A stretch of DNA of 64,000 bases. It comes from a virus. A program made the translations under genes and the position numbers. Position 1 is the stretch's first letter, and every line of letters begins with the position of its first letter. This document shows, piece by piece, positions 15,581-35,231 of the stretch. The notes beneath the pieces were generated by a model. That model saw only the letters and a program-made list of their open reading frames with translations, ran no database searches and was not told the DNA's origin. The DNA is taken from the IMG/VR virus record IMGVR_UViG_3300044612_002233, positions 56,028-120,027 of that record. The stretch is one strand, 5' to 3'.

Positions 15581-18500
15581 TTATGCTATATCAGACCAAT
15601 TATGAGAGTATCCTGTTCTGAAAGTATAACCAGCACTACTAGATATTAATATCGTTGTGCTATTAGCAATTGTGATAATAATTTTATTTCTATCTCCTCC
15701 ATCCGTATGAGTCCACACTTTAAAGATGGGACTAAGTGCTCCAAGACCAGACATTGCCTGAGTCCAAGAAGCCTTATTATCTGTTGAATGATATATTTTT
15801 CCCTCAGTTGTTGTGACAGCATATCGCCCATTACCCACATATATTCCATATCCATACGTAATTTTATCTACATTAAACATACTGCTTTGTCCAGATCCAT
15901 TTATTATGGTACTCCAGCTTATTCCATTACTACTAGTCGCTACGCCCATTCCTGCTCCAAGTGATCTATTTCCTATTATTATAAACTCATTATTAAGATA
16001 TTCTAATGATGAACAAGGCACAATTGGTCCTCCAAATGACCTTACTGTCCATGTTAATCCATCCGGCGATGTTGAACAGGTGCTTGAATTTTCTGTGGCG
16101 GCCACAATTATATTAGCACCATAAGCAATTCCTTTCCAATTAGCACTAGCAGGTAATGAAGAATAACTAACACTATTAACACTACCATTTAAGAATTTAA
16201 TAATAGCAATTTCAGAACTAGTATTGGACGTTAATATAAAGTTATTATTAATAGGATCATATGTAGAACTAATCCACAAATGAATGACACCAGGCATGTC
16301 ATCTGCCATATCATATGATTGCCAAGTTATACCATTATCAGTAGAATAATTAATAATATAACTATTATATGCTGCAGCAACGAACACTCCATTGCCATAA
16401 GATATTGTTGTCCACAATTGATTATCTGGTAAGTTCTTTAAGAGATAAGCATCACCATAGTCTTGAGATACCATAGCCTTGTTATTGCTGTATGCTACAG
16501 CAACAGCATTAGCTTGAGGTATGGCACTAGTTACTGTTGGAGTTATGGTTACTGTTTGAGTTACTGTTGGAGTGGTGGTTGTTGTTATAGTAGGAGTGAT
16601 TGTTGGAGTAATGCTAATTGTTGGAGTTGGAGTTTGTGTTGATGTTATACTCGGTGTTATTGAAACTGTTGGCGTTATTGTTCTGGTTGGAGTAGCCGTG
16701 GCAGTTACACTAATAGTAGGAGTAACTGTTGTTGTTGGACTAATTGATATTGTTGGGGTAATTGTGACAGTATTTGTTACACTTGGAGTTATGCTAATTG
16801 TTGGGGTGATTGTATTAGTAGGAGTAATTGATGGGGTATTTGTTATCGTTATAGTTGGAGTAATACTGGTAGTTGGAGTTATGCTAGTTGTTGGAGTTAT
16901 AGTAGATGTTACGGTTATTGTAGGAGTTGCTGTAACTGTTGGAGTTAATGACTTTGTTGGAGTTTTTGTGACTGTAGGAGTTATAGTATTAGTTGGAGTT
17001 AAACTATTAGTTTGAGTAATAGTTGGAGTAACTGTTTGAGTAATAGTTAATGATAATGATGGAGTTACTGTAATGGTTGGTGAAGGAGTTAACGAAGACG
17101 ATACTGTTACAGTAGGGGTTGCGGTACGCGTTACGGTATTGGTCGGAGTACTAGTTAGAGTGGATGTATTTGTTAGTGTTATTGTCGGGGTTTGCGATGG
17201 AGTTGCTGTTACAGTTGGGGTGATGGTTTTTGTTGGCGTTGGACTAACATTGGGTGGTTCGTACAAAATTGCAACATTAGGAACAAGTTTTCCTTGTAAT
17301 AAGAATCCTTTGTATAAAACTTCTATTTCATCACCAGAATAAACTGCATTTTGATAAATTAATTGACCAAGATTAATTGGAACAACTAGACTTTTGGATG
17401 GTGTCGGGGTTATTGTTGATGTTCGTGTTGGTGTTTTGGTAGTGGTTCGTGTTGGTGTTGTGGTTTTAGTTATAGTCGGAGTAACAGTCTGTGTTGGTGT
17501 TACTGTTGGAGTCACAGTTCTTGTTTGAGACACTGTTCTGGTAACAGTTTTGGTCGGAGTTATAGTTTGAGTAGCGCTAATAGATACTGTGGGTGTCTTT
17601 GTTGCTGTAACACTTTTGGTTGGAGTAACACTCTTAGTAACTGTTGGTGTTGCTGTTCTAGTTGGTGTTTTTGTTGGGGTGGCTGTTTTAGTTGGCGTAG
17701 GGGTTGGGGTGGCTGTGTAGCATACGCTTTCTGGACTAGTTTTATAAGCTTCTCCATTATCATCAACAATAACAGCATTAGGAGCAACATCACTTTGTGT
17801 TGCATACGTCCAGAATCCGGTATTAGCTCCGCCGCCTTTATAAAAAGCGGCTTTATACCATTCATTCTCGTTAGGAATCCAGTAAGTATTTTTGTTAGAT
17901 GGTGATGGTTTGGATGTTCCCTCGATTATTCCGCTTAAACTATAAACTCCAGACTCAGTATCGTTTCCAGTTTGTCCACCATTATGTAGCCAATTAACAT
18001 ATCGTGCAGCACAAAACCAATTCATAAAATTAACTGGCTTATTCCCCATATCCATTTTTGCAGAATATGTGAAGCCTACCGACGAAGATCCTGATCTATT
18101 GATTCCGCCCCTAGGATCATCGCTCATTTCGGGTATCCATAATGCTAGCCCAAAATTAGACGTACTAGCAACCGCATTTAAAAACTGAACATATTCAGAG
18201 TTTGTTATAGCATACTTTTTAATTTGATAATTATAAGCTACTGCACCATAATTATTATTAGCAGCATCACCGGTATTATTAGAGTCCGTCACTAGTGCAT
18301 AATTAGTTGAATCTATTAACGATGCTGTTTTGGCTATTCTGAATCCTATATCATTTCTTTTTCCATCAACATAATTAATATCAGAATAATTTTTAGCTAA
18401 TTGACCACTAGCACTTACGAAAGATCCTCCTCTGAATTTAGGATAACCGTCAACAAAAGTATCAACTATCTCATTAATGTTTCCGCTCTGATCATAGGTT

Positions 18501-18607
18501 CCATAGTAACTAGAGATTCCATTTAATCCTACTGCTGATAAGTTACCAGTAATCCCATTCCAAACAGCCTGACTATTATAGTTAGAACTATTACAATTAT
18601 TTAACAT
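15581..18607 (-). CDS. Adhesin: permuted FGE-like domain, Thr/Pro arrays, beta-propeller
   Basis: The 1,008-residue protein has four parts. Residues 1-290 form an FGE-sulfatase/SUMF1-like domain (C-type-lectin fold) in permuted order: YGTYDQSGN (35-43), GGS (60-62) and GFR (88-90) come first, then KYAITNSEYVQFLN (131-144), ARYVNWLHNG (201-210), NENEWYKAAFYKGGG (246-260) and YATQSD (268-273). Known FGE proteins have these blocks the other way round. The cysteines needed for formylglycine formation are not visible, so a binding role is more likely. Two Thr/Pro arrays flank a module of about 48 residues. The C-terminal 300 residues carry repeated YGNGxFVA and STDNGITW elements typical of sialidase/YCF48-like propellers. 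AAAGGA precedes the ATG. Probable receptor-binding or decoration protein. Confidence 0.85.
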   Translation of the reverse strand: MLNNCNSSNYNSQAVWNGITGNLSAVGLNGISSYYGTYDQSGNINEIVDTFVDGYPKFRGGSFVSASGQLAKNYSDINYVDGKRNDIGFRIAKTASLIDSTNYALVTDSNNTGDAANNNYGAVAYNYQIKKYAITNSEYVQFLNAVASTSNFGLALWIPEMSDDPRGGINRSGSSSVGFTYSAKMDMGNKPVNFMNWFCAARYVNWLHNGGQTGNDTESGVYSLSGIIEGTSKPSPSNKNTYWIPNENEWYKAAFYKGGGANTGFWTYATQSDVAPNAVIVDDNGEAYKTSPESVCYTATPTPTPTKTATPTKTPTRTATPTVTKSVTPTKSVTATKTPTVSISATQTITPTKTVTRTVSQTRTVTPTVTPTQTVTPTITKTTTPTRTTTKTPTRTSTITPTPSKSLVVPINLGQLIYQNAVYSGDEIEVLYKGFLLQGKLVPNVAILYEPPNVSPTPTKTITPTVTATPSQTPTITLTNTSTLTSTPTNTVTRTATPTVTVSSSLTPSPTITVTPSLSLTITQTVTPTITQTNSLTPTNTITPTVTKTPTKSLTPTVTATPTITVTSTITPTTSITPTTSITPTITITNTPSITPTNTITPTISITPSVTNTVTITPTISISPTTTVTPTISVTATATPTRTITPTVSITPSITSTQTPTPTISITPTITPTITTTTTPTVTQTVTITPTVTSAIPQANAVAVAYSNNKAMVSQDYGDAYLLKNLPDNQLWTTISYGNGVFVAAAYNSYIINYSTDNGITWQSYDMADDMPGVIHLWISSTYDPINNNFILTSNTSSEIAIIKFLNGSVNSVSYSSLPASANWKGIAYGANIIVAATENSSTCSTSPDGLTWTVRSFGGPIVPCSSLEYLNNEFIIIGNRSLGAGMGVATSSNGISWSTIINGSGQSSMFNVDKITYGYGIYVGNGRYAVTTTEGKIYHSTDNKASWTQAMSGLGALSPIFKVWTHTDGGDRNKIIITIANSTTILISSSAGYTFRTGYSHNWSDIA
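16530..17251 (-). repeat. Thr/Pro low-complexity array 2 of the propeller adhesin
   Basis: This encodes about 240 residues of (S/T)(I/V)TPT-type repeats and is the longest such array in the window. It separates a short folded module (residues about 403-450) from the C-terminal beta-propeller. The plus strand shows long open frames here rich in Val and Gly; these are shadows of the repeat and not genes. Confidence 0.85.
17395..17716 (-). repeat. Thr/Pro low-complexity array 1 of the propeller adhesin
   Basis: This part of the coding frame encodes about 107 residues made almost only of TPT, TKT, TVT and TRT units, with Pro about every fourth residue. On the plus strand it reads as gttggagt- and gttggtgt-like repeats. 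It probably forms an extended, stiff linker between the permuted FGE-like domain and the next small module. Such repetitive DNA is prone to slippage, so its length may vary between related phages. Confidence 0.85.
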
Positions 18608-18621
18608 ATTTTAATAGTCCT

Positions 18622-21600
18622 TTAGAAATTATTAGTAACTGAAAACGTAACTGTTTGTGATGGTGCAGAAACAATGGAGTATCCAGCTCCAGCTGGATCG
18701 CTGCCATTAATATTAACGGGAGAGTAAAGAGCATAGACTCTAGCTTTATAATTACCTAAACCTACCGGAAAATGAGATCCAAAAGTATAGCTAGTTTCAG
18801 TAGCTGATATTTGGCGAGAGCTGAAGAAAATATTAGTCGATAAATCGACATACATGACTGCTACATAACCATATAGAGTAAGAGAAATTCCTGGGACTAA
18901 TAGTGTCTGTGTCGGATGGCTCCATGTTATTGCGGCTTGTAAATCTCCTCCTGTCGCGCTTAGAATATTTGGAGCACATGGATTTGCAGTATCATTATTA
19001 GGGTTCCACCTATACCATCCTGCATTTATCATACCTGCTATAGTTCTTGGGTCCTGATTAAATCCAAAATTGTAACTAATATATCTACTAAATAGTCTAA
19101 TATAGACTGGTCTATTATTTAAATCTACAGGTGGATTACGATAGTATCTCATGCTAGACAGGTCTACTGGCCAACTATAGGTATAATTTTGTATTGATGC
19201 AACTGAAGAAAAGGGCAAATCATTCTTGGCCCATTGAAAAGTACTATCGAATATGGAACTATTAGAACTATTACCTAAATAAACACCATAGCTATAACCA
19301 TATAGTGGAATTGAATCTACTGTTGTGTCTAGTGGTGTTTTCCATGTTAAAAGTGCTGAATCCTGATATGATTGCATTACAAAATTCGAAGGAGCATTAG
19401 CACTATCGGATAAAAGACGATCATTTCGCATGCTAGGACTAATTGTCATTGTTGGAGTAACGGTTACGGTACTAGTTACTGTTGGAGTAGTAGTTGGAGT
19501 AAATGATGGACTAACAGTAATTGTTGGAGTAACTGTGGGTGTTTGCGTATTTGTCGGAGTTACAGTTATTGTGGGTGTTACTGTTGAGGTTACCGTTGGA
19601 GTCACTGTCTCTGTTGGAGTAACTGTAATTGTTGGAGTAATTGTCTGTGTTGTTGAAACGGTTTGTGTTACTGTTGGTGTTGTAGTAATAGTAATAGTTG
19701 GTGTTGGTGTTAGTGTTGAAGTTACACTGGGTGTTGGAGTATTCGTTGAAGTTACTGTTGCTGTTGGTGTTACTGTTGATGTTATTGTTGGAGTAACTGT
19801 GATTGTTGGCGTGACAGTTCTTGTTACTGTTGGAGTAACTGTTCTTGTTGGATAAGGAGTTTTGGTAACTGTTCTTGTAACCATCGGAAGTCTGGTTGCG
19901 CCTATTTCACAATCATTACTAAGACTATCACACTTTACCACAGTATTATTCTGATAAAAGACACGAGGAAGAGGAATACTTGAACTAATAATACCAAGAG
20001 TATTAGTATAATCTCCATCTAGCCAAGTATTACTTATCGGAGGATCAGGATATGCAGGATTCATAATATAATATAGAAAATCTTCTCCCCCTGCTGTGCT
20101 CTTTTGAAAAGCCCAATATGTTGTATATGGATATGCTGCTAGAGTAGTAAGACCAATTCTTGGATAAGAGTTTTTACCATCTTTACTATAAAAATAACTA
20201 CCATTACTATCAGTAGTAGTTGATAAATAATAAATACCATTAATTCCATCTTGTACAGCCTGACCACCAGAAACAATAATATCAGAACTATTCATTAGTT
20301 TACTAGTTAATACTAACATTTTCATTGGCCAATATTTCGTAATTTGCACCATGATTTGTTCTGTTGTACTAGAAGCAATAAATGCCACGATTGGTTTATC
20401 TATAGTGGCAGTATATGGAGATTCTTCGCTTAAAGTAAAGTAAGCAACATATTTATTTCCAGGAATAAGATTCGTGAATGTTACTAAATGTCCAACATTC
20501 TGAGGTGTTGGTCCATTGCCGTATGGGTCAATATCAGAACATGATGGAGCATTATTGCTTTGAGTAGCGTAATTATAAAATCCACTGGGTATTATAGAAT
20601 AAAAATCAAATACTCCAGGATTTTCAAAACTATTAGTTGACATATTAAATATGCCAGGAGAAATAGTGATATTAGTAGTAATAGGATCATCATAATTTAT
20701 ACTAGTAACAGTTGACCATGCTCCATTTTTTAAAATTTTCCAACCAGTTGTTACCGGAATAACGCTTTCTAAGTTTTGAACAGGGAGTGTGGCTGAGTCT
20801 TCAAATGGATTACCATTAGTATATGACCATTTCTGAACATCATTCAGATTATCTGAATAATAAGCTGCTTTATACCATTCTCTTCTTGAGGGTAAATAAT
20901 ATCTAGCATTTGCTGATCTTGATATATCAAACTGTATACCATCGACACCAACAGAAGGACTGGATACAAAATCATAGGCACCAGTATCTATTATTTTTGT
21001 ATTAGCATTATCTACTCTGTTATGTAGCCAATTACAATATCTCATTGCCATAAAAGCTGATACATAATTTACTGGTTTATTTCCCATATTTTGTAATACT
21101 GCATATTTTGAACCAGCAACATCATTATAGTCAAAACCTATTCCTCCATAAGTAGTATTTGACATAATCGAATGGTATAATAATCCAGAATTTCTAGAAG
21201 CTAATTGTCCATAACTATTACTATAATCAGATTCATCAGCAAGCAAACCACTAGGATCAACAGAATTTAAGAAGTCTACATATTGCTGATTCGTAACTTC
21301 TAAAGCTGATGCTTTGAAATTAGAACTAATTGATCTAATAATAAATGGATAATTCCCAGCAATGTCTCTAAATCCGGGTGTCAAAAAGTTTGTAGAATTA
21401 TCTACAGTTTTAAGTATTGATATTTTACCAAAATATTCACTATATATGTCTTTATCTATTGTATACCACTCTTTTCTATCTCTATGATGTCCATAAAGTA
21501 TAGATCCATCATAATTTATAGCTAATTGTAATATAGCAGGAGAGGATCCTGGACCACTTAATTGGGCATTTTTAATAAATACTGGCGATCCACCCGTAGT

Positions 21601-22536
21601 TGTTGGAAGTAAATTAATAGCATAAAAAGTATTTGACGCTGTTGAGGCGTATAACATACCAGAGTTTTTATCTATTGCAATATCGCCCAGTGTATTGTCT
21701 GTATCTAAAATAGGTAATGAAATATTCCATGTTTGTTTTCCTGTTGCTGTTGGCACATTACTTGATCCTGCATAGGAGAATGATATTTTGTTCAGAGTTT
21801 TTGTACCCTCTGTAAAATACCAATAGCCACTAGCATAATAATCTGCATTTCCTATAGATGTAGTTAAATAAGTATTTGATGAAGCTATATAAGCTAGTTG
21901 TGGACTGGTTGAGTTCGTATTCCACCAATACAATCCAGAAGGATCACTTTCATAGCCATTAAAGGTAAAATAAATCTGATCCTTGTCAAAATTATAAGCC
22001 AAAGCATTACAGGGGCTTTTCTGAAAAGTTGTTCCTGTGCCAAAAACTAAAGAACAAGCTCTTCTTTCTGGTATTACTTCAAAAAATAAATTTGTTTCTG
22101 TAATTCCATAAATTCTGGATTGTGGTAAAGTATCAGAAGCTGATGATCCGCTGACTGTAACAAAATTAGGTAAGTTTAGCGGGTTGCTGGTTGAGAATAC
22201 TCTAAATCCAATATCTTTTTTAAGAGTAAATGAGTTATAATTATTCTGATTATGTATACCAATATTATTAGAAGTATCATATTTGGAGATAGTTCCACTA
22301 TTCGAACTAAATGATCCTCCCAAAACTATTTTCGATGAGCTATAATTGTACTCTGGATTATATCCACTAAAACTAACATTATTTTCAATCCATTCAGCAA
22401 CATTTCCACTTTGATCATAAGTTCCATAATAACTAGGAGAGCCATTGAATCCAACAGCACTAACATTACCAGTAGCAGCATTCCAAATTACACAATTGTT
22501 ATAATTAGCCTTATTAAGACCAGGTATATCCAGCAT
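18622..22536 (-). CDS. Adhesin: permuted FGE-like domain with insertions, Thr/Pro array, two FN3-like domains
   Basis: The 1,304-residue protein opens with the C-terminal part of an FGE/SUMF1-like fold: YYGTYDQSGNVAEW (36-49), GGSF (73-76), GFR (110-112). FVTVSG (125-130) follows, and then an insertion of about 250 residues with WD/propeller-like strands. The N-terminal part of the fold comes next: ALEVTNQQYVDFLN (about 410-423), AMRYCNWLHN (about 502) and REWYKAAYY (about 550). YNYATQSNNAP appears near 657 after a second insertion. A Thr/Pro array (about 885-1035) leads to two fibronectin III-like domains at the C-terminus. AAAGGA precedes the ATG. It is a paralogue of the next gene downstream. 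Probably a tail-tip adhesin; no catalytic cysteine pair was found. Confidence 0.85.
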   Translation of the reverse strand: MLDIPGLNKANYNNCVIWNAATGNVSAVGFNGSPSYYGTYDQSGNVAEWIENNVSFSGYNPEYNYSSSKIVLGGSFSSNSGTISKYDTSNNIGIHNQNNYNSFTLKKDIGFRVFSTSNPLNLPNFVTVSGSSASDTLPQSRIYGITETNLFFEVIPERRACSLVFGTGTTFQKSPCNALAYNFDKDQIYFTFNGYESDPSGLYWWNTNSTSPQLAYIASSNTYLTTSIGNADYYASGYWYFTEGTKTLNKISFSYAGSSNVPTATGKQTWNISLPILDTDNTLGDIAIDKNSGMLYASTASNTFYAINLLPTTTGGSPVFIKNAQLSGPGSSPAILQLAINYDGSILYGHHRDRKEWYTIDKDIYSEYFGKISILKTVDNSTNFLTPGFRDIAGNYPFIIRSISSNFKASALEVTNQQYVDFLNSVDPSGLLADESDYSNSYGQLASRNSGLLYHSIMSNTTYGGIGFDYNDVAGSKYAVLQNMGNKPVNYVSAFMAMRYCNWLHNRVDNANTKIIDTGAYDFVSSPSVGVDGIQFDISRSANARYYLPSRREWYKAAYYSDNLNDVQKWSYTNGNPFEDSATLPVQNLESVIPVTTGWKILKNGAWSTVTSINYDDPITTNITISPGIFNMSTNSFENPGVFDFYSIIPSGFYNYATQSNNAPSCSDIDPYGNGPTPQNVGHLVTFTNLIPGNKYVAYFTLSEESPYTATIDKPIVAFIASSTTEQIMVQITKYWPMKMLVLTSKLMNSSDIIVSGGQAVQDGINGIYYLSTTTDSNGSYFYSKDGKNSYPRIGLTTLAAYPYTTYWAFQKSTAGGEDFLYYIMNPAYPDPPISNTWLDGDYTNTLGIISSSIPLPRVFYQNNTVVKCDSLSNDCEIGATRLPMVTRTVTKTPYPTRTVTPTVTRTVTPTITVTPTITSTVTPTATVTSTNTPTPSVTSTLTPTPTITITTTPTVTQTVSTTQTITPTITVTPTETVTPTVTSTVTPTITVTPTNTQTPTVTPTITVSPSFTPTTTPTVTSTVTVTPTMTISPSMRNDRLLSDSANAPSNFVMQSYQDSALLTWKTPLDTTVDSIPLYGYSYGVYLGNSSNSSIFDSTFQWAKNDLPFSSVASIQNYTYSWPVDLSSMRYYRNPPVDLNNRPVYIRLFSRYISYNFGFNQDPRTIAGMINAGWYRWNPNNDTANPCAPNILSATGGDLQAAITWSHPTQTLLVPGISLTLYGYVAVMYVDLSTNIFFSSRQISATETSYTFGSHFPVGLGNYKARVYALYSPVNINGSDPAGAGYSIVSAPSQTVTFSVTNNF
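19432..19884 (-). repeat. Thr/Pro low-complexity array of the FN3 adhesin
   Basis: This encodes about 150 residues of VTPT, ITVTPT and similar units. It links the permuted FGE-like part to the C-terminal fibronectin III-like domains. Its unit is the same as in the arrays at 16530-17716 and 60004-60270, which shows reuse of one linker type in otherwise different proteins. Confidence 0.85.
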
Positions 22537-22556
22537 TATTAATTTCCTTTATTTTT

Positions 22557-25271
22557 TTAAATACACTCAGGACCACATTTTACTGCAAGATAGTCCATAG
22601 CCTCCAAGGCATTGCTAGTATTAGTTAGTTTAAACTGTATAACAGCCTGACTCTGATTTTCTAAATTAATATTAGCAACAGTTAATAAATTAGCTTGTCC
22701 ACTATTCTGAAATACAATATTACCACTACTCGGAGTTAGTGTGATAGCAGGAGATGCTGAAATGAATCGATATGTATGATTATCTCCTGGCATAGCATTA
22801 CTAACATTAACAGATAATAGCTTTGTTCCAGAGCAGCAACCAACTGGTAGTGTTAATACTGGAGATCCAGAGAATGAAACAATATAATCTGTTATAGGTA
22901 AGCAATTATTACAATTTAATGTAAAATCATTACTATACGTTGTTATATTTGAGCAAGAGGTTTGTTGAACGCTCATGTTCAAAGTTATAAACTTATTCTT
23001 TGATCCATCGTATAATGAATTTTCTTTATAGACTAGGATAGTATCTCTAGTGTCGGTAGCGCATGATCCACTAGGGTAACAGAACCCAATGTCTGTTTTG
23101 ATAACTCTAGAGTCAGAAGTTGCCACAAATTCACCAGATTGTCTTGAAACAACAACCGGCCAATTACTATCAACACGAGCAAAATTGTATTTATACGTTT
23201 CTCCAGGAATAAGATTATTTAGTCTAGAGTTTAAAACATAAGTATTATTACCGAAAGTATCCAATACAGCATTAGAGTCTTGAATAATCTCAAGCTTCTT
23301 TAGACAATTATCACAAGAAACTCTACATTCATTACTTTGTGCTATTGAATCATTACAACCAGTTTCTTTAATTTCTAGTCTTAGTTTCACATTTCTATCA
23401 ATTGCTCCAAAATTCGTTGAACAAGTTGGATCTAATGAATATGGAATAACATTTGCTGTTCCATTAGGACATGTTCCTGTTGATGGGCAGAATGTTAATC
23501 TGCTAGTTAAACTTTCAAAAGTTGAATTAGCTTTAATTACTCCACTCATTGGATATAGTATTGCTGGCCAATTAGCTCCAGCACCCTTAAACTCATAACT
23601 ATAATACGATCCTGGAACAAGATTACTAACATCTGCTAGAACATCAATATAATTTGTTCCATAGTTAAGAGAAAGATTCTTTGGTATTGTAGCATCTAGT
23701 ATTGGTAAGCAGTTTTCGCAAGAGGCTGTTAACTCATTACTGTAAATAGTTTCAGCATCATAGTTAATTGGATCAACCATTAGTCTCAATTTAATATTTC
23801 TACTAATATATCCTGCTCTTGTAATACATGAAGAGTCAATGGTATAATCGAGAACATCAGGATCAGAACTAGGACAAATACCGGTTGATTTGCAGAAAGA
23901 TAATTTGGCGGGGATTGACATTGATGTTGTTGTTGGAGTTAATAGTCCGCTCATTGGAGAGATTGTTACAGGCCAATTAGCATCAACAGCCTCAAAAACA
24001 TATCTGTATTGTGAATTTGGAATAAGATTCAGTATGTCTGCATTAAATACATACTTATCATTTCCTTGTGTTAAATTCAAAGAGTTTGGAATAGACGCTC
24101 TTGGTTTGGACACACAGTCATTACAAAAAATACTTAATTCATTACTATAGGTTGATTCATTATTAGAAGATTGTTTAATTCTGAGTTTTATTCTTGCTGT
24201 TTTGTCTAATAGTCCAAAGTTGATATCTGATGATACATTGGTTGTGTATGCTAAGACTCCATTAACTCCACTTGGGCACAAGCCTGTTGATGGACATAAT
24301 GTTAGTTTAACAGGAATAGACGCCACTTTATCTGTGGCTACCATTGTGCCACTTTGTGGCTGCACTAAGACTGGCCAATTAGCTCTGACACTACTAAATT
24401 CATATGAATATTCTTGTCCAACAATAAGATTATCTAAAGCAACATCAAAACTACTATAAGTATCACCAGCATTAAGATCAATTACAGAAGGTAACACAGC
24501 ATGAGTTTTTGGTAAACAGTCATTACAGAGCACGGAAAAGGACGATGATGAGCTAGCTTGTGGAGATTGTGCTTTTTCAACTGGCTCAACTACTAGGTTA
24601 ATAACAGAATATCTATCTTCTCTATCTATACTATTTGAAGTATCAACATAGTTTAAAACTTTATCATCAGCTTCTAAGCAGACATTGGAAGATGAACAGA
24701 ATGATAGTAGACTAGTTATATTAGCATATTCATTTGAGGCTTTAATGACTCCTGATCTTGGAACTATCTTTACTGGCCAATTTCCTCCAGCTCCTTCAAA
24801 AGAGTATGTATATGATTGATTTGGTATTAATCCATTAATCTCTGATGTTATGCTTGTTGAATTTCCATCTTCTGGATTAAATGACATAGAGTCTGTTCTA
24901 ATTGATAGTTGAGGAGCACATTCATCACATTCAACAATACATGGATGTGTATATATAACTTCATTAACATTATCATATTCTGTAATAGATAATCCAAGAA
25001 CACTATATAAACTCTTTGGTCCAACAGCTAATCCTGGATCACTGATTTTTGTCTGTGGAGTATTGAAGAATACATTAGCATCAGAAGCTGGACATTCTCC
25101 AGTTGTTGAGCAAAAATATACATATGTTTTGACATTACTAGGATAAAATACTCCTGATAGTGGAGTTACTCTAACTGGCCAATTTCCACCATTATTAGTA
25201 AATTTAAATCTATATTTATTATTTGGATTTAATCCACTAACATTAACATCAATTGTTTTAATTGTTGACAT
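22557..25271 (-). CDS. NWP-repeat fibre protein (six full repeats plus one degenerate)
   Basis: The 904-residue protein is six tandem copies of a roughly 134-residue unit followed by one degenerate unit. Each full unit contains NLIPGxxYxYxF, a strictly placed NWP(V/A), PxSG about four residues later, FCxSTGxCP or a close variant, and a closing CxxC (CNDC, CENC, CDNC). The plus-strand marks of the NWP codons lie at 25177, 24775, 24373, 23971, 23566 and 23158, a period of 402 bases or slightly more. I do not recognise the family. The strand pattern suggests an Ig- or FN3-like beta sandwich stabilised by disulfides or metal. No signal peptide or enzyme motif is seen. AAAGGT precedes the ATG. It probably forms a long rod or fibre at the tail tip (inference). 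Confidence 0.85.
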   Translation of the reverse strand: MSTIKTIDVNVSGLNPNNKYRFKFTNNGGNWPVRVTPLSGVFYPSNVKTYVYFCSTTGECPASDANVFFNTPQTKISDPGLAVGPKSLYSVLGLSITEYDNVNEVIYTHPCIVECDECAPQLSIRTDSMSFNPEDGNSTSITSEINGLIPNQSYTYSFEGAGGNWPVKIVPRSGVIKASNEYANITSLLSFCSSSNVCLEADDKVLNYVDTSNSIDREDRYSVINLVVEPVEKAQSPQASSSSSFSVLCNDCLPKTHAVLPSVIDLNAGDTYSSFDVALDNLIVGQEYSYEFSSVRANWPVLVQPQSGTMVATDKVASIPVKLTLCPSTGLCPSGVNGVLAYTTNVSSDINFGLLDKTARIKLRIKQSSNNESTYSNELSIFCNDCVSKPRASIPNSLNLTQGNDKYVFNADILNLIPNSQYRYVFEAVDANWPVTISPMSGLLTPTTTSMSIPAKLSFCKSTGICPSSDPDVLDYTIDSSCITRAGYISRNIKLRLMVDPINYDAETIYSNELTASCENCLPILDATIPKNLSLNYGTNYIDVLADVSNLVPGSYYSYEFKGAGANWPAILYPMSGVIKANSTFESLTSRLTFCPSTGTCPNGTANVIPYSLDPTCSTNFGAIDRNVKLRLEIKETGCNDSIAQSNECRVSCDNCLKKLEIIQDSNAVLDTFGNNTYVLNSRLNNLIPGETYKYNFARVDSNWPVVVSRQSGEFVATSDSRVIKTDIGFCYPSGSCATDTRDTILVYKENSLYDGSKNKFITLNMSVQQTSCSNITTYSNDFTLNCNNCLPITDYIVSFSGSPVLTLPVGCCSGTKLLSVNVSNAMPGDNHTYRFISASPAITLTPSSGNIVFQNSGQANLLTVANINLENQSQAVIQFKLTNTSNALEAMDYLAVKCGPECI

Positions 25272-25295
25272 TTATTTTACCTTTGTATATTGAGT

Positions 25296-26093
25296 TTAAC
25301 AGCTGGTTCCTTCACTGATAGTCACACCCACGCCAACATGACCACCGTTACTAGCACAATCTAAGCATCTGATTTTAACTATATTACTACGATGAATTAT
25401 ACTAGAACAATCTGGGTCACTAAGCAATAATCTGAATGATGTTTCGGTTTTATACCAATTTTTAGTTCCTGCATTATTCTTTATTGAATATGGCAATACT
25501 CCTATTTGTCCATTTGGACACGAACCTGTTGTGGCACAGAAGCCTCCGTATAGGCTAAGCACAGCATCTTTTTCGTGTGCATATATTTGACCGGTTGTTG
25601 CAGATAATGAGAACGGCCAATCTGAATCTAGTGCTTGTAGTGAATAATTATATAGTTTATTTGGGATTAAATTACTAAGAGTAATATTTATTTCGTGTTC
25701 AGTTTCTTTTTTAATTCCGGTATTGACCACATCAAATTTTATTTTTGGAAAACAACCAGTGCAAGTCACTTTAACCGAATCGCTTTTATATATATTTGAA
25801 GCATCGTTTACAGCATAAAACGACAATTGTATTTTACTAAATGGATCATCTCCAATATTACATAAACAATCATCATAAGCTAATAGACCATCACAGTCTA
25901 AACAGCCAGTTTTTGATAGGCAAAAATATACTGTAGCATCAATTGATGCTGTAGCGGATGTTGAGGTTATGGAACCACTAATTGGTGTTATTACTGTTGG
26001 CCAGTTTGACCCTATGCCATTAAAAACATAGTTATATTTTTCAAATGGAATTAGGCCATTTATTTGAGCCGAAATATCTATAGGATTAGGCAT
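25296..26093 (-). CDS. NWP-repeat protein, two repeats
   Basis: This 265-residue protein consists of two units of the same repeat as the following gene: NWP and DWP mark the cores, each followed by FCxxxTGxC and a closing CTGC or CLDC. The C-terminal tail is short and Gly-rich (CASNGGHVGVGVTISEG). AAAAAGGA lies eight bases upstream of the ATG. The flanking genes carry the same repeat, so the three proteins may assemble together or be paralogues made by duplication and splitting of one long gene. Function unknown; a tail fibre segment is the simplest reading. Confidence 0.8.
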   Translation of the reverse strand: MPNPIDISAQINGLIPFEKYNYVFNGIGSNWPTVITPISGSITSTSATASIDATVYFCLSKTGCLDCDGLLAYDDCLCNIGDDPFSKIQLSFYAVNDASNIYKSDSVKVTCTGCFPKIKFDVVNTGIKKETEHEINITLSNLIPNKLYNYSLQALDSDWPFSLSATTGQIYAHEKDAVLSLYGGFCATTGSCPNGQIGVLPYSIKNNAGTKNWYKTETSFRLLLSDPDCSSIIHRSNIVKIRCLDCASNGGHVGVGVTISEGTSC

Positions 26094-26119
26094 TTGATAT
26101 CCTTTTTAGTATGAATAAC

Positions 26120-26127
26120 TGTTTATA
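26120..26127 (-). promoter_or_regulatory. Weak candidate late promoter (TATAAACA)
   Basis: The minus strand reads TATAAACA in the 43-base gap before the two-repeat NWP gene, about 27 bases upstream of its ATG. It matches the T4-type late consensus TATAAATA at seven of eight positions. In such AT-rich DNA a single match of this quality can arise by chance. Confidence 0.2.
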
Positions 26128-26136
26128 CACCATATG

Positions 26137-27804: not shown

Positions 27805-27839
27805 TCATAAAGTTTATGTTGCATAATATTATTTACACC

Positions 27840-28724
27840 CTATGTAAAATCTGATATTGGAATAGTATCCCCAATAACTCTGCCGCCCGCTTTTAATAAA
27901 CAAACAGAAGGTATTGGCTGTGGTGATTCTGGCGAACCCAATAGGGCCGTATTTTTAACAGGTAACAGAACAACGGTGTCCTGGTTTTGCGCTGGATTTT
28001 CTAATATGAATTTTACTATTACTTGATCTCTTACAATATATGTCCAATTATTATTATAGTCTAATGCAGTATATACTGATGAGGCATTGTTATAAACCAG
28101 ATTCGTTGGGTCGATACAACCAATAGCAGTGACGAAGGAAAATGTTCCAGAATATGATTGATTTGCTACGAAATTAACAACCTTGTTAAGCTCAATTAAG
28201 GTATTAGAAATTAAACTTTTAACAAAATATGTTTCTGTGGTTGGTATTCCTGGGCCAGTAACTGTTGATCCTAGTGTTATTGATGAACTTGCTCCTGTTG
28301 TATCCGTTATTTGTATAATTGATCCTCCGTTAGGACCAATCCCTCCAGAAGAAGTTGACAAAAGAAGGGTGCCAGCAACACTAGCTTTTGATTCTGGTGA
28401 ACATATTATTAATAAATAATCAGTATATAATACATTATTTTTTGTATCTTTTATCGTTAATCTTAATAAAGTTTTCGTTTGTATTTTCTGTAATGCCTTA
28501 ACTTTCATAAAAATTTTTGGAACCAAACTTGCTGAACCCTGAATAGAATAAGATCCTGATGGAGGCTCAAAAGTTATTGTGGTTGGCGGATTTTTAGGTA
28601 GGTTAATTGGAGTATCAAAATATAATACATACTCTGTTTGTTTTTTTATAGAAGATGGGATAGGGAAATATACAATAAATCCCTTTTGCCCTTCTTCTAA
28701 TGAATAATTTTGTGTTGTAATCAT
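27840..28724 (-). CDS. Tail-tip protein with degenerate NWP-type repeat
   Basis: This 294-residue protein has an N-terminal region (about 20-110) that aligns by eye with the NWP repeats (TEYVLYFDT, then FEPPSGSY, and a closing IIC), but it lacks the NWP tripeptide and the cysteine pairs. The remainder is beta-rich with no motif that I recognise. It starts one base after the TAA of the previous gene, with no strong ribosome binding site, so it is probably translated by coupling. Function unknown; structural by context. Confidence 0.75.
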   Translation of the reverse strand: MITTQNYSLEEGQKGFIVYFPIPSSIKKQTEYVLYFDTPINLPKNPPTTITFEPPSGSYSIQGSASLVPKIFMKVKALQKIQTKTLLRLTIKDTKNNVLYTDYLLIICSPESKASVAGTLLLSTSSGGIGPNGGSIIQITDTTGASSSITLGSTVTGPGIPTTETYFVKSLISNTLIELNKVVNFVANQSYSGTFSFVTAIGCIDPTNLVYNNASSVYTALDYNNNWTYIVRDQVIVKFILENPAQNQDTVVLLPVKNTALLGSPESPQPIPSVCLLKAGGRVIGDTIPISDFT

Positions 28725-28725
28725 A

Positions 28726-29289
28726 TTATATTGTTTCTGATTGACATTTAATTGTTACTATTTTTTCAAGTAATTTTTTATTATTCTGCGTTACTGATAT
28801 TACTGAAAATTTAAAGATACTAATATTTTGTTGATTATTGAGAATGGCTAAATTAATTGGAAGAATTGCTCTTCTTACAGAAATAGTTTCATTAGTAGTA
28901 GTTCCTGGTTTAGGAATAGTATAATCAGAATACTTGGCATCTTGTATTATTATGTCTTCTATATTGGTATTCGTAGTTAACTCAACAAATTCAAAACTAT
29001 ATTTATATGGTTCTGGTTTTAATTGTGTAATTTCAAACTCTAATATGGCGCCTAAACAACAATAATTCTCTATACTATCATTAGCAATGAGGTTATTTTC
29101 ATAGTATGTCTTAATAGTTGGTATTGGATCAAAGCATACCGGCTGACTAACAAATTCAACAACTGATCCGTCTGTGAGTTTTGTATATAGTTTTCCAGTA
29201 ACACTATTCATTACTAATTCACCAATTGATATCTGATCTGTGCTTGGAAATCCATCACCTTGCTCGTCTCTTTTAAATAATAGTTTCAT
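28726..29289 (-). CDS. Small fibre protein with phage-fibre N-terminus
   Basis: I chose the ATG at 29289, which overlaps the TGA of the previous gene (ATGA) and has GGAG about ten bases upstream. An ATG three codons earlier is only one base from the same GGAG and is unlikely. The 187-residue product starts with a motif common at the N-termini of phage tail fibres (LLFKRDEQGD, then GELVMNSVTGKLYTKLTDGS), which probably attaches the protein to the tail. A degenerate NWP-type unit follows (EITQLKPEPYKYSFEF, ending in VTIKC). A role as a fibre attachment segment is inferred. Confidence 0.75.
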   Translation of the reverse strand: MKLLFKRDEQGDGFPSTDQISIGELVMNSVTGKLYTKLTDGSVVEFVSQPVCFDPIPTIKTYYENNLIANDSIENYCCLGAILEFEITQLKPEPYKYSFEFVELTTNTNIEDIIIQDAKYSDYTIPKPGTTTNETISVRRAILPINLAILNNQQNISIFKFSVISVTQNNKKLLEKIVTIKCQSETI

Positions 29290-31748
29290 GTTGGGCATAC
29301 TCCTGTGAATAGAATAGATCCAAAGTCCCAGTTGCTTAGCAGATCATTTTCTCTTTGTACAGCTAATTCTGGATCTTCTTCCGATATTAAGTTTCCTGAT
29401 GCATATATATAAGCATATGAACTTTGACCATTAGAATTATATGCTGATAGTCTATAGTGATAATTTATATTAGATTCAGTACCATTTATAACTTCATTAG
29501 TAGAAGTAATAAGATTACTAGTATCATTATAATTCTGCCACGATATTCCAGCATCGTATGATTCTTCTATTCTATATCCAAGAATTGGACTTGATCCATT
29601 TTGGCCAGCTTCCCAAGATAAAGCAATATCAGAATATATAGTATTATCAAATTCTCTAACATATGCTAAATTATATGGAGCTTTTGGAACAGATGATCCT
29701 GGGGTCATGCCACTAGAAGCATCAGAGTATTCACCTATTCCAATTAGGTTTTGAGCAGATATTCTAAACTTATACTGGGTTGCGGCAGAAAGCCCCTTTA
29801 TTGTCGCTCTTGTTGATTCTGGTTTTGCTCTATCAACAGAATATGGAGACTGTATATCGGTCCATGTGTCACCATTATTGGTGGAAAACTGAATAATATA
29901 ATTTATTATTAAACTGTTACCATCACTCTCTGGTTGATTCCATTTGATTGATAATTCACTATTACCAATACCGTTTGAATCAGGATCAAGAATTATACCG
30001 TAGGGTTTTCCTGGGGTTGTTGGATTGGTCTTTGGTACTCTGGATATTATCTTACCATTTTTATCAATTGTTAATAAAGCATTTGTTATATATTTACCGC
30101 TATTATCTGATAACGGCAATGGTCTTAAATAAATGTCTTCAGTAATAATATTAGGACTATATATTGTCCTATCTACTGTTAAATCAGCATAATCATAAAC
30201 ATATCCTGTTATCGTCACCTCTCCTATTGTATAAGTACCAGTTGGTAATGAACTTATAACATATGCTCCGCTTGTATTAATAGAAACTTTTGCTCTAGTA
30301 TCATAATTCCATCCTGAAGGATTTGTTTTTTCTCTATCTAGATACTTTACAAAATAAATACCGGAAGATGGAGATCCGCTAGCTGCGTTTGGTACATTAG
30401 CATCTACCTTAAGAGCAGGAATCATACCTACTGGAATATTATGTGAATTTAATCCAAAAATATTTTCATCATAATTTCCATATCTTGTTTTTCTTTGTCC
30501 ATAAACAAGGAAGTCTATGTTTTCACCAAGCATATTAAATGCTGTATGAGTATCTGGTCTTATACTGATACTATTAAGTGTGCTTGGTTTAAATTTTAAT
30601 TGACTATTTTGTAGTTCGTCTTGTATGCAATTATATTGGTTCTTTGCAGTTCTTCCCAACTGCATATCCATATATGCTCCCTTAGTAACAGAGAATGCGT
30701 ATCCATTCCCTAAATATGAGTTACCATCTGACCAAGGCTTTGGCGTACAAATTTTAATAGCTAAGCCTTGTACCGTTTGATCTGGTTCTCCATCGGGGTC
30801 AATAAAGTCTGCTTCTTGATAGAGGTCTTCTAATGGAGTAACTAGGTCAATAGAATCTTGTTCAGCTCCGTACCTAACTTCTGCTGCAAATTTAACATAT
30901 ACAATTTCTCTCGTATCATTTCTCATTAATTCAATAGTATCAAAACCTATTCCAAATTCTGATTCTAGTATTTCTTGAGTTAATGCTGTGGCACTTATAC
31001 TAGCATCTGCCCATTTAGGTTTATTAATATAAAATATGATTCTACCATCTTCGACCTTAACTGGTCTCTTTGAGAATCTATTCCATTTAACCCCATCTGC
31101 ATTAAGATACACTGCTGGAGACCACTCTGCGGGCTGATCTTTTCCCATGTGTGTAAGAATATTACCTTTATATCCTTCAAAGTTTGGATATATTTGTATT
31201 CCTTCTGTTATTTTTGTTATAGCATTTATTGTAACTTTTGCTGGGATTTGAACGCTATCAATAGTAGTAGATGGTTCATATTCTATTTGTGAAAATGCTT
31301 TTATCTCGTGACTATTTGGATTATCAAAATTACCGGAACTTACATATAAAGGTCCGTATGGTTGACTTGGCATTGTTATAGCATTCAATCCAGTATTAAA
31401 AACCAATTTATTTCCCGGAATTGCTGCTAAATCATTTTCTCCAGATCTATATATCAAAGCACCTTCAGACCCAGGATAAGACGGTATTATATTTCCACTG
31501 GAGTCTATTTTGCTTATTTGTTGATATAAAAGATTTTTAGATCTTAATCCACTAACGTCAACATATCCTTGTGATATAAGTTGTATTCCGCTTCCGCCAA
31601 CTAACCACATATTACCACTTGCTGATAATTGAATATTCTTATCTCCAAGAACATTAAAATATTGTCCATCTATTTTTTTATTTCCAGTATTTATACTAAC
31701 TCCTGGCCAGCTTTTTGGACCTAGTATTGTAAACCATGAATTGCTCAT
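29286..31748 (-). CDS. Tail fibre protein with two fibronectin III domains
   Basis: The 820-residue protein has an N-terminal Gly/Ser-rich beta region (NIQLSASGNMWLVGGSG) like that of trimeric tail fibres. A middle module (about 220-470) includes VKWNRFSKRP, FSVTKGAYMDM, SIRPDTHTAFN and DFLVYGQRKTRYG; a matching module occurs in the following upstream gene. A carboxypeptidase-regulatory-like stretch (SINTSGAYVISSLPTGTYT) comes next, then two fibronectin III domains at about 573-785 (TQYKFRISAQNLIGIGEYS and NYHYRLSAYNSNGQSS). AAAGAGGAAA precedes the ATG. Fibronectin III domains in phage virions are thought to bind cell-surface carbohydrate weakly. Probable fibre or tip protein. Confidence 0.8.
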   Translation of the reverse strand: MSNSWFTILGPKSWPGVSINTGNKKIDGQYFNVLGDKNIQLSASGNMWLVGGSGIQLISQGYVDVSGLRSKNLLYQQISKIDSSGNIIPSYPGSEGALIYRSGENDLAAIPGNKLVFNTGLNAITMPSQPYGPLYVSSGNFDNPNSHEIKAFSQIEYEPSTTIDSVQIPAKVTINAITKITEGIQIYPNFEGYKGNILTHMGKDQPAEWSPAVYLNADGVKWNRFSKRPVKVEDGRIIFYINKPKWADASISATALTQEILESEFGIGFDTIELMRNDTREIVYVKFAAEVRYGAEQDSIDLVTPLEDLYQEADFIDPDGEPDQTVQGLAIKICTPKPWSDGNSYLGNGYAFSVTKGAYMDMQLGRTAKNQYNCIQDELQNSQLKFKPSTLNSISIRPDTHTAFNMLGENIDFLVYGQRKTRYGNYDENIFGLNSHNIPVGMIPALKVDANVPNAASGSPSSGIYFVKYLDREKTNPSGWNYDTRAKVSINTSGAYVISSLPTGTYTIGEVTITGYVYDYADLTVDRTIYSPNIITEDIYLRPLPLSDNSGKYITNALLTIDKNGKIISRVPKTNPTTPGKPYGIILDPDSNGIGNSELSIKWNQPESDGNSLIINYIIQFSTNNGDTWTDIQSPYSVDRAKPESTRATIKGLSAATQYKFRISAQNLIGIGEYSDASSGMTPGSSVPKAPYNLAYVREFDNTIYSDIALSWEAGQNGSSPILGYRIEESYDAGISWQNYNDTSNLITSTNEVINGTESNINYHYRLSAYNSNGQSSYAYIYASGNLISEEDPELAVQRENDLLSNWDFGSILFTGVCPT

Positions 31749-31763
31749 AATTGAATTTCCTCT

Positions 31764-34700
31764 TTAAATAAACCACCCAGGACCATTGGTTTTTTCGTCA
31801 CACCACCAAGGAAGATTATCTGATTCTATTAAACCAGCATCTGAACATAAAGAGAATGTGTCTGTTTCTATTCTCTTGGGTTGAGCAGAGAATATACATC
31901 CAGTACAACTAGCTATAGTTCCTAATATTGATTTTGTATTACGATTATTCCATTGGTCATCAAGATTAGTGGCTGGCGTTTGTGTTTGCGTAATAGTTTG
32001 TGTGTTTGTTTGTGTGTTTGTTGTGTCTGTTCCACCACCTTGTGTGAAATTTAATTCAGATAATGATGACATTATTGTGCCATCACCAATCATAATATGA
32101 TCAGCATATAACCATCCACTCACACTTAAATTAGCAAATACTTTTGTTTCTTGGTTTGTTACAGCATCGATACCTGAACCAACCAAATAAGGTTCGGGTC
32201 TTTTGATACTAACAGATGATGTTCCAGTAACACTGTTACCATTAACTGGTCTGTAGTATGCGGCTTTATGCCATTCACTAAGTTCTGGTAGCCAGTATTT
32301 TCTATAAGATCCTTTAGCTATACTATAAGTGTCTACATCAGTAAGATATATATTATATGATCCATTATTAAGTATATAATCAATATTATTTTCAGCAATT
32401 ATTGGAAGAGCCCCATTGTGCATCCAATTTATAAATTTAATAGCATTTAAATAACTAACAAAAGTGACTGGCTTATTAATCATGGATGGTTTTGGAGAGT
32501 ACTCATAAACTCCTGTGTCTATTCGTAGTATTCCTCCAAGGTTACTGCTCGTCATTCTAGAATCATATAATTTACGATCTACTACCTTACTGCTAGCTGT
32601 TGCATTTAAGAACTTACAATATTGACTATTAGTAATTTCATATTTACCTATTCTATAAAAATTATTAACAACGCCTAGATTGTTTAATATTATAGGAGAA
32701 TATGATCCAGTTGATCCTTTAACATATGTACTTGATGAATCTTTAATATTTCTAGGATCACCAACCGTAACAAAGGACATATTTAGTCCGGTTGCCTGAG
32801 ATATAGCGGCCGAATCAATTATTCCCTGTAGCCCTGCTATTCTGAAGCCAACATAATCAAATCCCGACATTCTAGGAAGAGACTCTATACTTTTTAAACC
32901 ACTGGGGCCTATTTCAACATCGTCTGTTGTTAAGTAAGATCCTCCAGCGGTAAACTCGTTTATGTCACGAGATTCTATAGATGCTTTTTCAACCCACTCT
33001 GCAACGTTTCCGTTCTGATCGTATGTTCCATAATAAGATGGTAATCCATTTGTTCCAATATCTGATAATACTCCACTAAATAAATTTCTGCTAATATTAT
33101 AATTATAATTTGCAGATGAGTAGTAGTTTGAAATGCCGCTTCCTCCAGTTGTTACCACAATAGGAAACATATCTGTTCTAGTGGTTGCAAATGGAGAATA
33201 AATGCCAGATGGTTGTAATACTCTGCCAGAATTAGCTTTAATTAATAGTGCTGGTTGTTCATCAAGTCCATAAACTATAAAATTAATATCTTTTTGTTTG
33301 CTGTTAAAGACAGTATCTGTTAATGGTCGCACACTAAGAATATTTTCTGTTGAATCAGACAATGTACCTTCATCAACACTCTTAGTCATCGTTAAATATC
33401 CACCCTTAGTTATAGAGTAAACATTAACATTTGATGTAATATTTTGTACAATATTTTGATCTACTAAAAGTCCAACAACGGCACTACCATTTGATTCTAA
33501 ACTAATAATTTTTCTGTATATATTAGATCCATTTGATGAGATCACTATTTGATCTCCAGCAGCAAACTCATCAGCAGAAACACTATCTGTGAAAGTAATT
33601 TGTCTCAAGCAGGCTGTTGCGGGTCTTGGGGAATACTTTGTCCAAATAACATCTCTTTCAGTTAAGAAATAGTCATCTAAAGTATATATTCCAGTGATTG
33701 CTCCATTTGACGTTGTGCTCAATAATTTATTTGCTGGCACAGGAAGTAAAAGAGCCCCTGCCGAATCAATACTGAGTGGACTATTAATTAGTTTACCGCC
33801 AGAAGCCATCAATAGTCCGCTAGATCCCAAATTACTAATAGTAATATTAGTAACATCAATATTTTGTGAAGATATGGTTGTTAGGTATGAGGTTCCTGTA
33901 GCATATACTGAGGACGATGAGAATGTTATTGATGATTGGGGACTAACTGTTATCTGACTATTTCCATTAGATAATAGTAAATTACCATTATTGTTAATTT
34001 GTAATCTATTTCCACTATATCCAACATATGTAGAATCTACTGTAGTTTGTATGGTTTTTATTCCTGTGACACCAGAAACTACTGTGATATCTAGTGAACC
34101 CTTTTCTCCATAAACTGTTGTATTAACTGCTCGTGATTCTATCTGGGCATAATTTGTTTGATTGCCTGTAGAATTTTTAGCAGAAAGGTTGATCTGGGAA
34201 ACAACACTACCACTTGCTATATCTGTTGACGGTTTATGATAAAGAGTTATATTAGCTGGATAGCAGGATGTTCTATTCTCTAGTCTTAAGCCTTCTTGAC
34301 AAACGGTATTAACAATATGGAATACTGTTGATGGCCGTGAGCCTGACGGAATGTTGATTCCTACTCTTCCGTCATAAGAAAAAAATAAATTTTTACTTAA
34401 CGATCCGCTTCCATAAACTATAAAATCGCTACCATTAGTACTATTGTTAACAATGAAAGGATATGTACCACTAGTTGGGATAATGGTATCTGCTGATGAT
34501 GCTGAATTTGCTCCGATAAATACTCTTTGAGACTCTGAATCCCAATACATTTCGGCATTATTCATTTCTCCACTTAATATAGAAAAAGTATCAGAATCAT
34601 TATTTAATGACTGTACGCTCATTCTTTCTGGAGACTTATTATTTAGTACTACCCAATCCTTCCCTGTCGATGCTAATCTGGCATAATTATTAAATGAATC

Positions 34701-35231
34701 TAGTGTGCATACTAGTGACCCATCTTTATTATTCACAAATAATGAGTTTGATGATTCTATTAGTTTTAATTCAATAATAATATTGTTTGACTGGTCTAAT
34801 GATGGAAGACTAATGCTAATAGGTTTTGAAGAGCAGTCTACAAGATATAAGGCACTTATAGCATCTAAAGATAAGTCTTTATCAATAACGATTGTATTAT
34901 TTAGTCCTTTATCAAAAGAACTTTGATTAGCAAATACATAAAAATCATTACCAGAAGATGGAAAATCTACTGTATTGTTATTATTAGACGATGAAATAGT
35001 CTCAATTCTTTTAACAACAATATTACCACTATTATCAAATACTATTTCTCCAACACCAGTTTCAAATAAGCGACTATTTAAGTTTCTGGCTATGTAAGGA
35101 ATTAAATATCCTACATGATTAGTATTAAGAATATTATATGTTTTTATAGCAGATACTGGCTTAATAACGTCATTTTCTATAACGAAATTAAATCCAATAT
35201 TATCAAATACTCTTATTAGTTTGTTTGACAT
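31764..35231 (-). CDS. Long tail fibre with permuted FGE-like domain
   Basis: Residues 1-510 of this 1,155-residue protein are beta-repeat fibre sequence (for example SYDGRVGINIPSGSRPSTVF). Residues about 515-715 share a module with the FN3 fibre gene (VIWTKYSPRP, SITKGGYLTM, SVRPLTDTVFN, NFIVYG). A permuted FGE/SUMF1-like domain follows: SYYGTYDQNGNVAEW (about 733-746), GGSYL (about 762), GFRIAG (about 794), FVTVGD (about 820), KYEITNSQYCKFLN (about 862-875), INWMHNG (about 937), ELSEWHKAAYY (about 983-993). A Gln/Thr linker and a Cys-rich tail (SCTGC, WWCDE) close it. It starts three bases after the tape measure stop, with only a weak ribosome binding site. Probable receptor-binding fibre. 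Confidence 0.85.
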   Translation of the reverse strand: MSNKLIRVFDNIGFNFVIENDVIKPVSAIKTYNILNTNHVGYLIPYIARNLNSRLFETGVGEIVFDNSGNIVVKRIETISSSNNNNTVDFPSSGNDFYVFANQSSFDKGLNNTIVIDKDLSLDAISALYLVDCSSKPISISLPSLDQSNNIIIELKLIESSNSLFVNNKDGSLVCTLDSFNNYARLASTGKDWVVLNNKSPERMSVQSLNNDSDTFSILSGEMNNAEMYWDSESQRVFIGANSASSADTIIPTSGTYPFIVNNSTNGSDFIVYGSGSLSKNLFFSYDGRVGINIPSGSRPSTVFHIVNTVCQEGLRLENRTSCYPANITLYHKPSTDIASGSVVSQINLSAKNSTGNQTNYAQIESRAVNTTVYGEKGSLDITVVSGVTGIKTIQTTVDSTYVGYSGNRLQINNNGNLLLSNGNSQITVSPQSSITFSSSSVYATGTSYLTTISSQNIDVTNITISNLGSSGLLMASGGKLINSPLSIDSAGALLLPVPANKLLSTTSNGAITGIYTLDDYFLTERDVIWTKYSPRPATACLRQITFTDSVSADEFAAGDQIVISSNGSNIYRKIISLESNGSAVVGLLVDQNIVQNITSNVNVYSITKGGYLTMTKSVDEGTLSDSTENILSVRPLTDTVFNSKQKDINFIVYGLDEQPALLIKANSGRVLQPSGIYSPFATTRTDMFPIVVTTGGSGISNYYSSANYNYNISRNLFSGVLSDIGTNGLPSYYGTYDQNGNVAEWVEKASIESRDINEFTAGGSYLTTDDVEIGPSGLKSIESLPRMSGFDYVGFRIAGLQGIIDSAAISQATGLNMSFVTVGDPRNIKDSSSTYVKGSTGSYSPIILNNLGVVNNFYRIGKYEITNSQYCKFLNATASSKVVDRKLYDSRMTSSNLGGILRIDTGVYEYSPKPSMINKPVTFVSYLNAIKFINWMHNGALPIIAENNIDYILNNGSYNIYLTDVDTYSIAKGSYRKYWLPELSEWHKAAYYRPVNGNSVTGTSSVSIKRPEPYLVGSGIDAVTNQETKVFANLSVSGWLYADHIMIGDGTIMSSLSELNFTQGGGTDTTNTQTNTQTITQTQTPATNLDDQWNNRNTKSILGTIASCTGCIFSAQPKRIETDTFSLCSDAGLIESDNLPWWCDEKTNGPGWFI

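Follow-up and report, generated by a model that had tools for sequence, protein, structure and literature searches.

We describe here a protein domain of the formylglycine-generating enzyme (FGE)/C-type lectin (CLec) fold which very likely is a circular permutant of this fold, and which is encoded by three genes in the tail module of a large phage. The window, i.e. the whole stretch of DNA analysed, comprises the last 64 kb of the 120-kb linear IMG/VR virus record IMGVR_UViG_3300044612_002233 (G000). The products of the genes at 15581, 18622 and 31764 are named P1, P2 and P3. C and N denote the C-terminal and N-terminal halves of the domain, C-N the permuted and N-C the canonical order. An earlier note on this DNA had reported that in all three genes the C-terminal blocks precede the N-terminal blocks within one frame. 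This is confirmed by the open reading frames (ORFs), by matches to the Pfam family PF03781 and by hidden Markov models (HMMs) of the two halves.

All three ORFs (15581-18607, 18622-22536 and 31764-35231) are uninterrupted on the minus strand, with the C-half before the N-half in a single frame. The order of blocks is YDQSGN, GGS, GFR and then ITNSEY, NWLHNG, EWYKAAFY in P1; YDQSGN, GGS, GFR and then VTNQQY, NWLHNR, EWYKAAYY in P2; and YDQNGN, GGS, GFR and then ITNSQY, NWMHNG, EWHKAAYY in P3. PF03781 is found above cut-off in P1, P2 and P3 (2.3e-7, 9.3e-14 and 2.1e-9, respectively). Both halves of the Pfam profile are present in P2, where positions 165-253 lie upstream of positions 35-142 (G000 78225-78491 and 76803-77351, minus strand). 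Separate half-domain HMMs likewise find C and then N in each of the three proteins. The features are as follows (window coordinates).

15581..18607, minus strand: P1 gene (ORF); as judged by eye, threonine-proline-rich (TP-rich) linkers come after the permuted domain, and Asp-box-like repeats make up part of the C-terminal region.
18323..18607, minus strand: C-half of P1, residues 1-95, at the extreme N-terminus (NYN...YGTYDQSGN...RGGS...GFRIA); half-domain HMM 128 bits.
18338..18430, minus strand: GGS-to-GFR segment of P1, residues 60-90, equivalent of the ligand-binding/variable region of Mtd and TvpA.
18305..18322, minus strand: junction of P1, residues 96-101 (six residues), from the old C-terminus to the old N-terminus.
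17753..18304, minus strand: N-half of P1, residues 102-285 (NYALV...ITNSEY...NWLHNG...EWYKAAFY...YATQSD..P); half-domain HMM 266 bits; PF03781 positions 35-134.
18622..22536, minus strand: P2 gene (ORF).
22186..22530, minus strand: C-half of P2, residues 3-117; half-domain HMM 80 bits; PF03781 positions 165-253.
21403..22116, minus strand: insert of about 240 residues in P2, after the first strand of the N-half; propeller-like by eye only.
20800..21399, minus strand: remainder of the N-half of P2, about residues 380-579; half-domain HMM 119 bits; PF03781 positions 35-138.
31764..35231, minus strand: P3 gene (ORF).
32826..33134, minus strand: C-half of P3, residues 700-802; half-domain HMM 121 bits.
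32154..32777, minus strand: N-half of P3, residues 819-1026; half-domain HMM 238 bits; PF03781 positions 35-124.

A structure prediction of the N-terminal region of P1, suggested by the earlier note as a check, was made with AlphaFold2 from 79 permuted sequences. Residues 1-290 are predicted to fold as a single domain (pLDDT 94.2, pTM 0.93, no residue below 50), a result which supersedes a poor model from 11 sequences (pLDDT 46). The prediction supports one compact domain formed by both halves. Of 81 distinct permuted domains, 41 have a junction of six residues between the halves, and 72 have one of five to nine. As the terminal strands beta1 and beta5 of the canonical CLec fold are antiparallel partners (PMC6328139), a short turn is a sterically natural way to connect them and such a junction is feasible. 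The old C-terminal strand (GFR, beta5) would run via a turn of about six residues into the old N-terminal strand (beta1), and the new chain ends would lie in the loop between the EWYKAAYY...YATQSD..P block and the (S)ANYN...VG block, which in canonical relatives is a surface loop of variable length. By prediction, the chain folds back into one domain.

Comparison with proteins of known structure points the same way. By sequence, the permuted profile matched human SUMF1 and SUMF2, Streptomyces FGE, PvdO, PorK, TvpA and 5aoh. The printed profile alignments place query positions 10-102 on the ends of these chains and positions 118-285 on their beginnings, as two reversed pieces. When the halves of the permuted model were swapped, the share of the model matched by canonical proteins rose from 0.58 to 0.98; conversely, with the halves of the canonical model swapped, the share matched by permuted proteins rose from 0.64 to 0.94. 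Foldseek searches against PDB and BFVD gave no global match (TM-score at most 0.25 for FGE-fold matches), a failure to be expected of a sequential aligner that meets a permutant and not a sign of absent kinship. TvpA, which is among the top profile matches, was the top Foldseek match by E-value, at a value that is not significant. Together with about 99 copies sharing a near-constant short junction, the single-domain model, the reversed two-piece matches and the reordering of profiles bear out the circular permutation proposed in the earlier note, and we are highly confident that the domain is one permuted unit.

A search for permuted homologues, with the permuted alignment as the query, gave 74 distinct viral loci (the best 80 of 170 confirmed relatives). 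Among the relatives listed, 86 ORFs with matches read C-N, 11 read C-N-C-N and one reads C-N-C-N-C-N. With the same query, and with patterns lying each inside one half, cellular contigs yielded 59 loci, with 37 N-C ORFs versus a single C-N ORF. A canonical-order query still retrieved mostly C-N from viral contigs (54 C-N versus 25 N-C ORFs). After removal of duplicates, the C-N domains amount to 97 viral ones, one in the window and one in a cellular metagenome-assembled genome (MAG), about 99 distinct copies and nearly all of them in IMG/VR phage contigs; the N-C domains are 34 cellular and 25 viral ones. Since the order recurs in about 99 distinct sequences, it does not reflect chance.

The permuted domain was present in 22 of 22 phage records, with one to ten matches each, most of which span the whole permuted model in one stretch. 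The sole cellular genome with C-N copies is an alphaproteobacterial MAG (G044), in which P1-like and P3-like genes lie on contigs of 5.0 and 3.8 kb; the simplest explanation is that phage contigs were binned together with those of the host. Whole-genome searches of eight other cellular genomes returned N-half matches (about 104-292) followed by C-half matches (about 7-108) and not the permuted unit, the exceptions being a tandem protein (L242) and one C-N reading across stop codons (G045). The viral N-C matches mostly failed as phage proteins: most are proteins of about 300 amino acids on contigs of 5-15 kb, and one tested carries a PEP-CTERM signal, so that most of them are probably host DNA. 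Clear exceptions, i.e. N-C domains of phages, are L220, L161 and a copy nested in L080. Two short contigs filed as 'viral' (L179, L158), on which as many as five canonical FGE genes lie next to one another, are probably misfiled bacterial DNA, as the one tested has a PEP-CTERM signal.

Could the two halves belong to different domains, the C-half pairing with the N-half of another chain by swapping or with that of a neighbouring gene? Halves do occur unpaired, as in phage G001, in which a gene carrying nothing but an N-half is found two genes upstream of one with C, an immunoglobulin-like (Ig) domain, N and C; long inserts separate the halves in P2 and its relatives; and collagen NC1 provides a recorded case of segment swapping within the C-type-lectin-like superfamily (PMC3779223). 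However, stand-alone proteins of about 315-365 amino acids (L069 with 315, L085, L051 and L008) have exactly one C and one N, the monomer is predicted with very high confidence, and five to nine residues is what one would expect of a turn that links adjacent strands. We regard this possibility as improbable; the earlier note had named two separate incomplete domains as the finding that would overturn its proposal, and the confident model, the short junction and the one-C-one-N proteins answer that objection. Hardly worth entertaining is the view that there is no permutation as such and that C-N is a reading-frame artefact of a canonical tandem array cut at gene ends: the N-C-N-C protein L242 of a cell genome and the adjacent N-C genes of G045, which read as C-N across stop codons, speak for it, but most phage genes, single-copy ones included, have as many C as N, with a C first and an N last, multi-copy proteins consist of short-junction C-N pairs with roughly 70-400 residues to the next pair, canonical and permuted units coexist side by side (G004) or nested in one protein (L080), and the stand-alone proteins lack full flanking in-frame N- and C-halves around their single C-N unit.

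As to the function of the module, the catalytic cysteines of FGE are located between GGS and GFR. Among 94 scorable permuted domains, 75 have no cysteine there, 16 have one and three have two; FGE chemistry is thus not expected. The GGS-to-GFR segment (P1 residues 63-86) is the most variable part of the domain, with a column entropy of 3.14 bits compared with a mean of 1.87 over 79 sequences. In Mtd, TvpA and TaqVP the segment between beta3 and beta5 forms the ligand site (PMC6328139). As the two-cysteine signature of FGE is absent and variability peaks in the ligand segment, a binding (adhesin) role is likely rather than an enzymatic one, and on this analysis the permuted module probably binds a receptor or surface ligand. 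It would bind host surface ligands via the variable GGS-to-GFR segment, as Mtd does, and do so without retroelement mutagenesis. The variability of this segment reflects divergence and not programmed mutation: a retroelement reverse transcriptase (PF00078) was not found in G000 or 38 related records, many of them possibly fragments, which suggests that diversity arises by ordinary evolution and module copying. The module is attached to tail-module proteins N-terminally, C-terminally or in-line, often on TP-rich stalks, in one to ten copies per phage. P1-type proteins look like tips on such stalks and P3-type proteins like conserved tail components.

Two other functions have to be weighed against receptor binding. 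With the permutation being real, the module might be structural (stalk, assembly or decoration) or bind the phage's own proteins instead of a host receptor. In favour of this idea, P3-type proteins of at least seven other phages have the domain at the same position, next to the tape measure, as would be the case for a core tail component. Against it stand the concentration of variability where Mtd, TvpA and TaqVP have their ligand site (PMC6328139), the multiple diverged copies and the terminal placement on TP-rich stalks in P1-type proteins. We consider this alternative possible, and clearly less probable than receptor binding. An enzyme of formylglycine-generating, EgtB-like or other non-heme iron/copper chemistry that modifies a phage or host protein is very unlikely: the Pfam and NCBIfam relatives do include enzymes of the FGE fold, but only three of the 94 domains have the cysteine pair, and up to ten repeats of the domain per phage lie inside long structural proteins.

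As to the origin of the permutation, a secreted-looking protein of a verrucomicrobial MAG (L242) reads N-C-N-C in one frame, and its inner C-N is exactly the permuted unit. This form and the C-Ig-N-C form of L239 point to a duplication route. The permutation probably originated a single time: a canonical domain would have been duplicated in tandem, after which the first N-half and the last C-half were lost. L239 (G001:C1:29500-40500) is the locus mentioned above with an N-half-only gene (ORF 2071-3465) two genes upstream of a C-Ig-N-C phage gene (ORF 4748-10030); the arrangement possibly represents a duplication intermediate or a split domain. Canonical copies lie beside permuted ones in phage proteins of G004. 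In L080 (ORF 1-6867, residues 298-880), a permuted C-N domain (298-475 and 776-880) carries a complete canonical N-C domain (about residues 480-775) within its N-half.

On a tree of 148 rows, the order character needs three changes. For a subset of 58 rows, the tree holding all permuted rows together has the better likelihood and is not rejected (p-AU 0.905). The claim of the earlier note that the permutation predates the duplication of the three genes is consistent with these trees, given the very few order changes and a single clade that is not rejected; a single origin is compatible with the data and not proven. In its widest form, our interpretation is that one ancient permutation founded a phage-specific CLec recognition family, which today supplies the main module for host recognition in a broad group of large tailed phages, and in which the ligand segment was moved to the front of the domain and the module became spliceable at either end or mid-protein, even nested around or beside canonical copies. 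We see the case for this as evenly balanced. Several points weigh against our main reading, a permuted fold of probably single origin with a likely role in binding: support for the backbone of the order tree is weak; a Myxococcota N-C protein (L090) and a C-N-C protein (L196) fall among the permuted rows of the 148-row tree; the viral sample is biased towards top-scoring matches; and a receptor-binding position in the virion is deduced from gene neighbourhood only.

The tail-module location of the permuted-domain genes is indicated by the P3 gene, which lies directly downstream of a giant tape-measure ORF.

35235..52883, minus strand: giant tape-measure protein of 5882 amino acids, marker of the tail module; PF10145 (PhageMin_Tail, 1.3e-27) within the first 600 residues.

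Tape measures were found above cut-off in 14 of 38 related records. The record G000 also encodes DnaB helicase, primase, pieces of DNA polymerase III alpha and ribonucleotide reductase. The first piece of the split polymerase (L226:2134-8496, G000:C1:40133-46495) ends with an intein-splicing/Hint match (PF14890, PF05203). Within P2, the insert of about 240 residues is missing from the homologue L006, and a second insert of about 60 residues precedes the final YATQSN..P strand of the N-half. P3 has an N-terminal part of about 700 residues ahead of the permuted domain, and its relatives in at least seven other phages measure 1155-1198 amino acids. Pfam offered no family for the 240-residue insert of P2 or for residues 1-689 of P3. 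In the interval 22557-31748, no gene carries the permuted domain. Three of the tail-module genes, at 22557, 25296 and 26137 (window 22557-28724, minus strand), have in common a repeated module (about 110-150 residues) that contains NWPV/SG blocks and ends with C-x-x-C (e.g. FCNDC), of which a 904-residue product of this region has seven copies by eye. A small protein of the structural region (window 60492-61481, minus strand) has a proprotein-convertase P-domain (PF01483, 2.8e-10). An Mtd N-terminal domain (PF18454, 1.3e-8) occurs in another protein of the same phage (L224:16132-17358, G000:C1:16132-17358), distant from the tail module and without a retroelement.

In an open-access collection of papers (subscription papers and preprints being outside the search) we found no description of a permuted FGE, SUMF1 or C-type-lectin domain, and the statement of the earlier note that no permuted FGE-like phage adhesin had been described stands to this extent. 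A survey of 224 jumbo-phage genomes states that no such lectin domains were found (PMC7824862), and a study of structural outliers reports the C-type-lectin superfamily with segment swapping only and does not mention permutation (PMC3779223). The order swap is widespread and old, and apparently undescribed. The permuted order accounts for these proteins being reported as partial, or overlooked, in routine family annotation and in structure searches with sequential aligners.

Phages and bacteria use the FGE-type C-type lectin fold as the standard scaffold for hypervariable recognition. The permuted version indicates that this scaffold tolerates new chain ends, with the ligand-binding segment moved off the C-terminus. 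Moreover, it is a clear example of a permutation that came about by duplication, and possible intermediates (N-C-N-C, C-N-C and nested) are present in public data. Permuted domains also mark candidate host-recognition proteins in a group of large phages for which, at the sensitivity used, neither megablast nor tblastn found an isolate relative in 50,697 phage records.

Several known systems resemble the permuted domain in part. The tentaclins, phage CLec-Ig proteins, likewise carry an N-terminal CLec domain ahead of further domains, but their CLec domain is DUF6273-like and mutated by diversity-generating retroelements (DGRs), and no permutation is described for them (PMC10743442). The DGR variable proteins Mtd (phage BPP-1), TvpA (2y3c) and TaqVP have the CLec fold with the beta3-beta5 segment as the most variable one, as in the permuted domains. 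Their variable region lies at or near the C-terminus in canonical order, whereas in the permuted domains it lies upstream of the N-half and the records carrying it, G000 and the 38 others, are devoid of a detected PF00078 reverse transcriptase. The FGE-sulfatase family (PF03781; SUMF1/SUMF2, EgtB, PvdO, PorK/GldK) shares the conserved blocks of each half, with a significant profile match to each, and differs in having the N-half first and an active-site cysteine pair that is mostly absent here. The closest canonical relatives by sequence are PEP-CTERM and other cell-surface N-C proteins of Verrucomicrobia, Planctomycetes and cyanobacteria, which keep the canonical order and are mostly stand-alone proteins of about 300-500 amino acids with an N-terminal extension and, in some, a PEP-CTERM tail.
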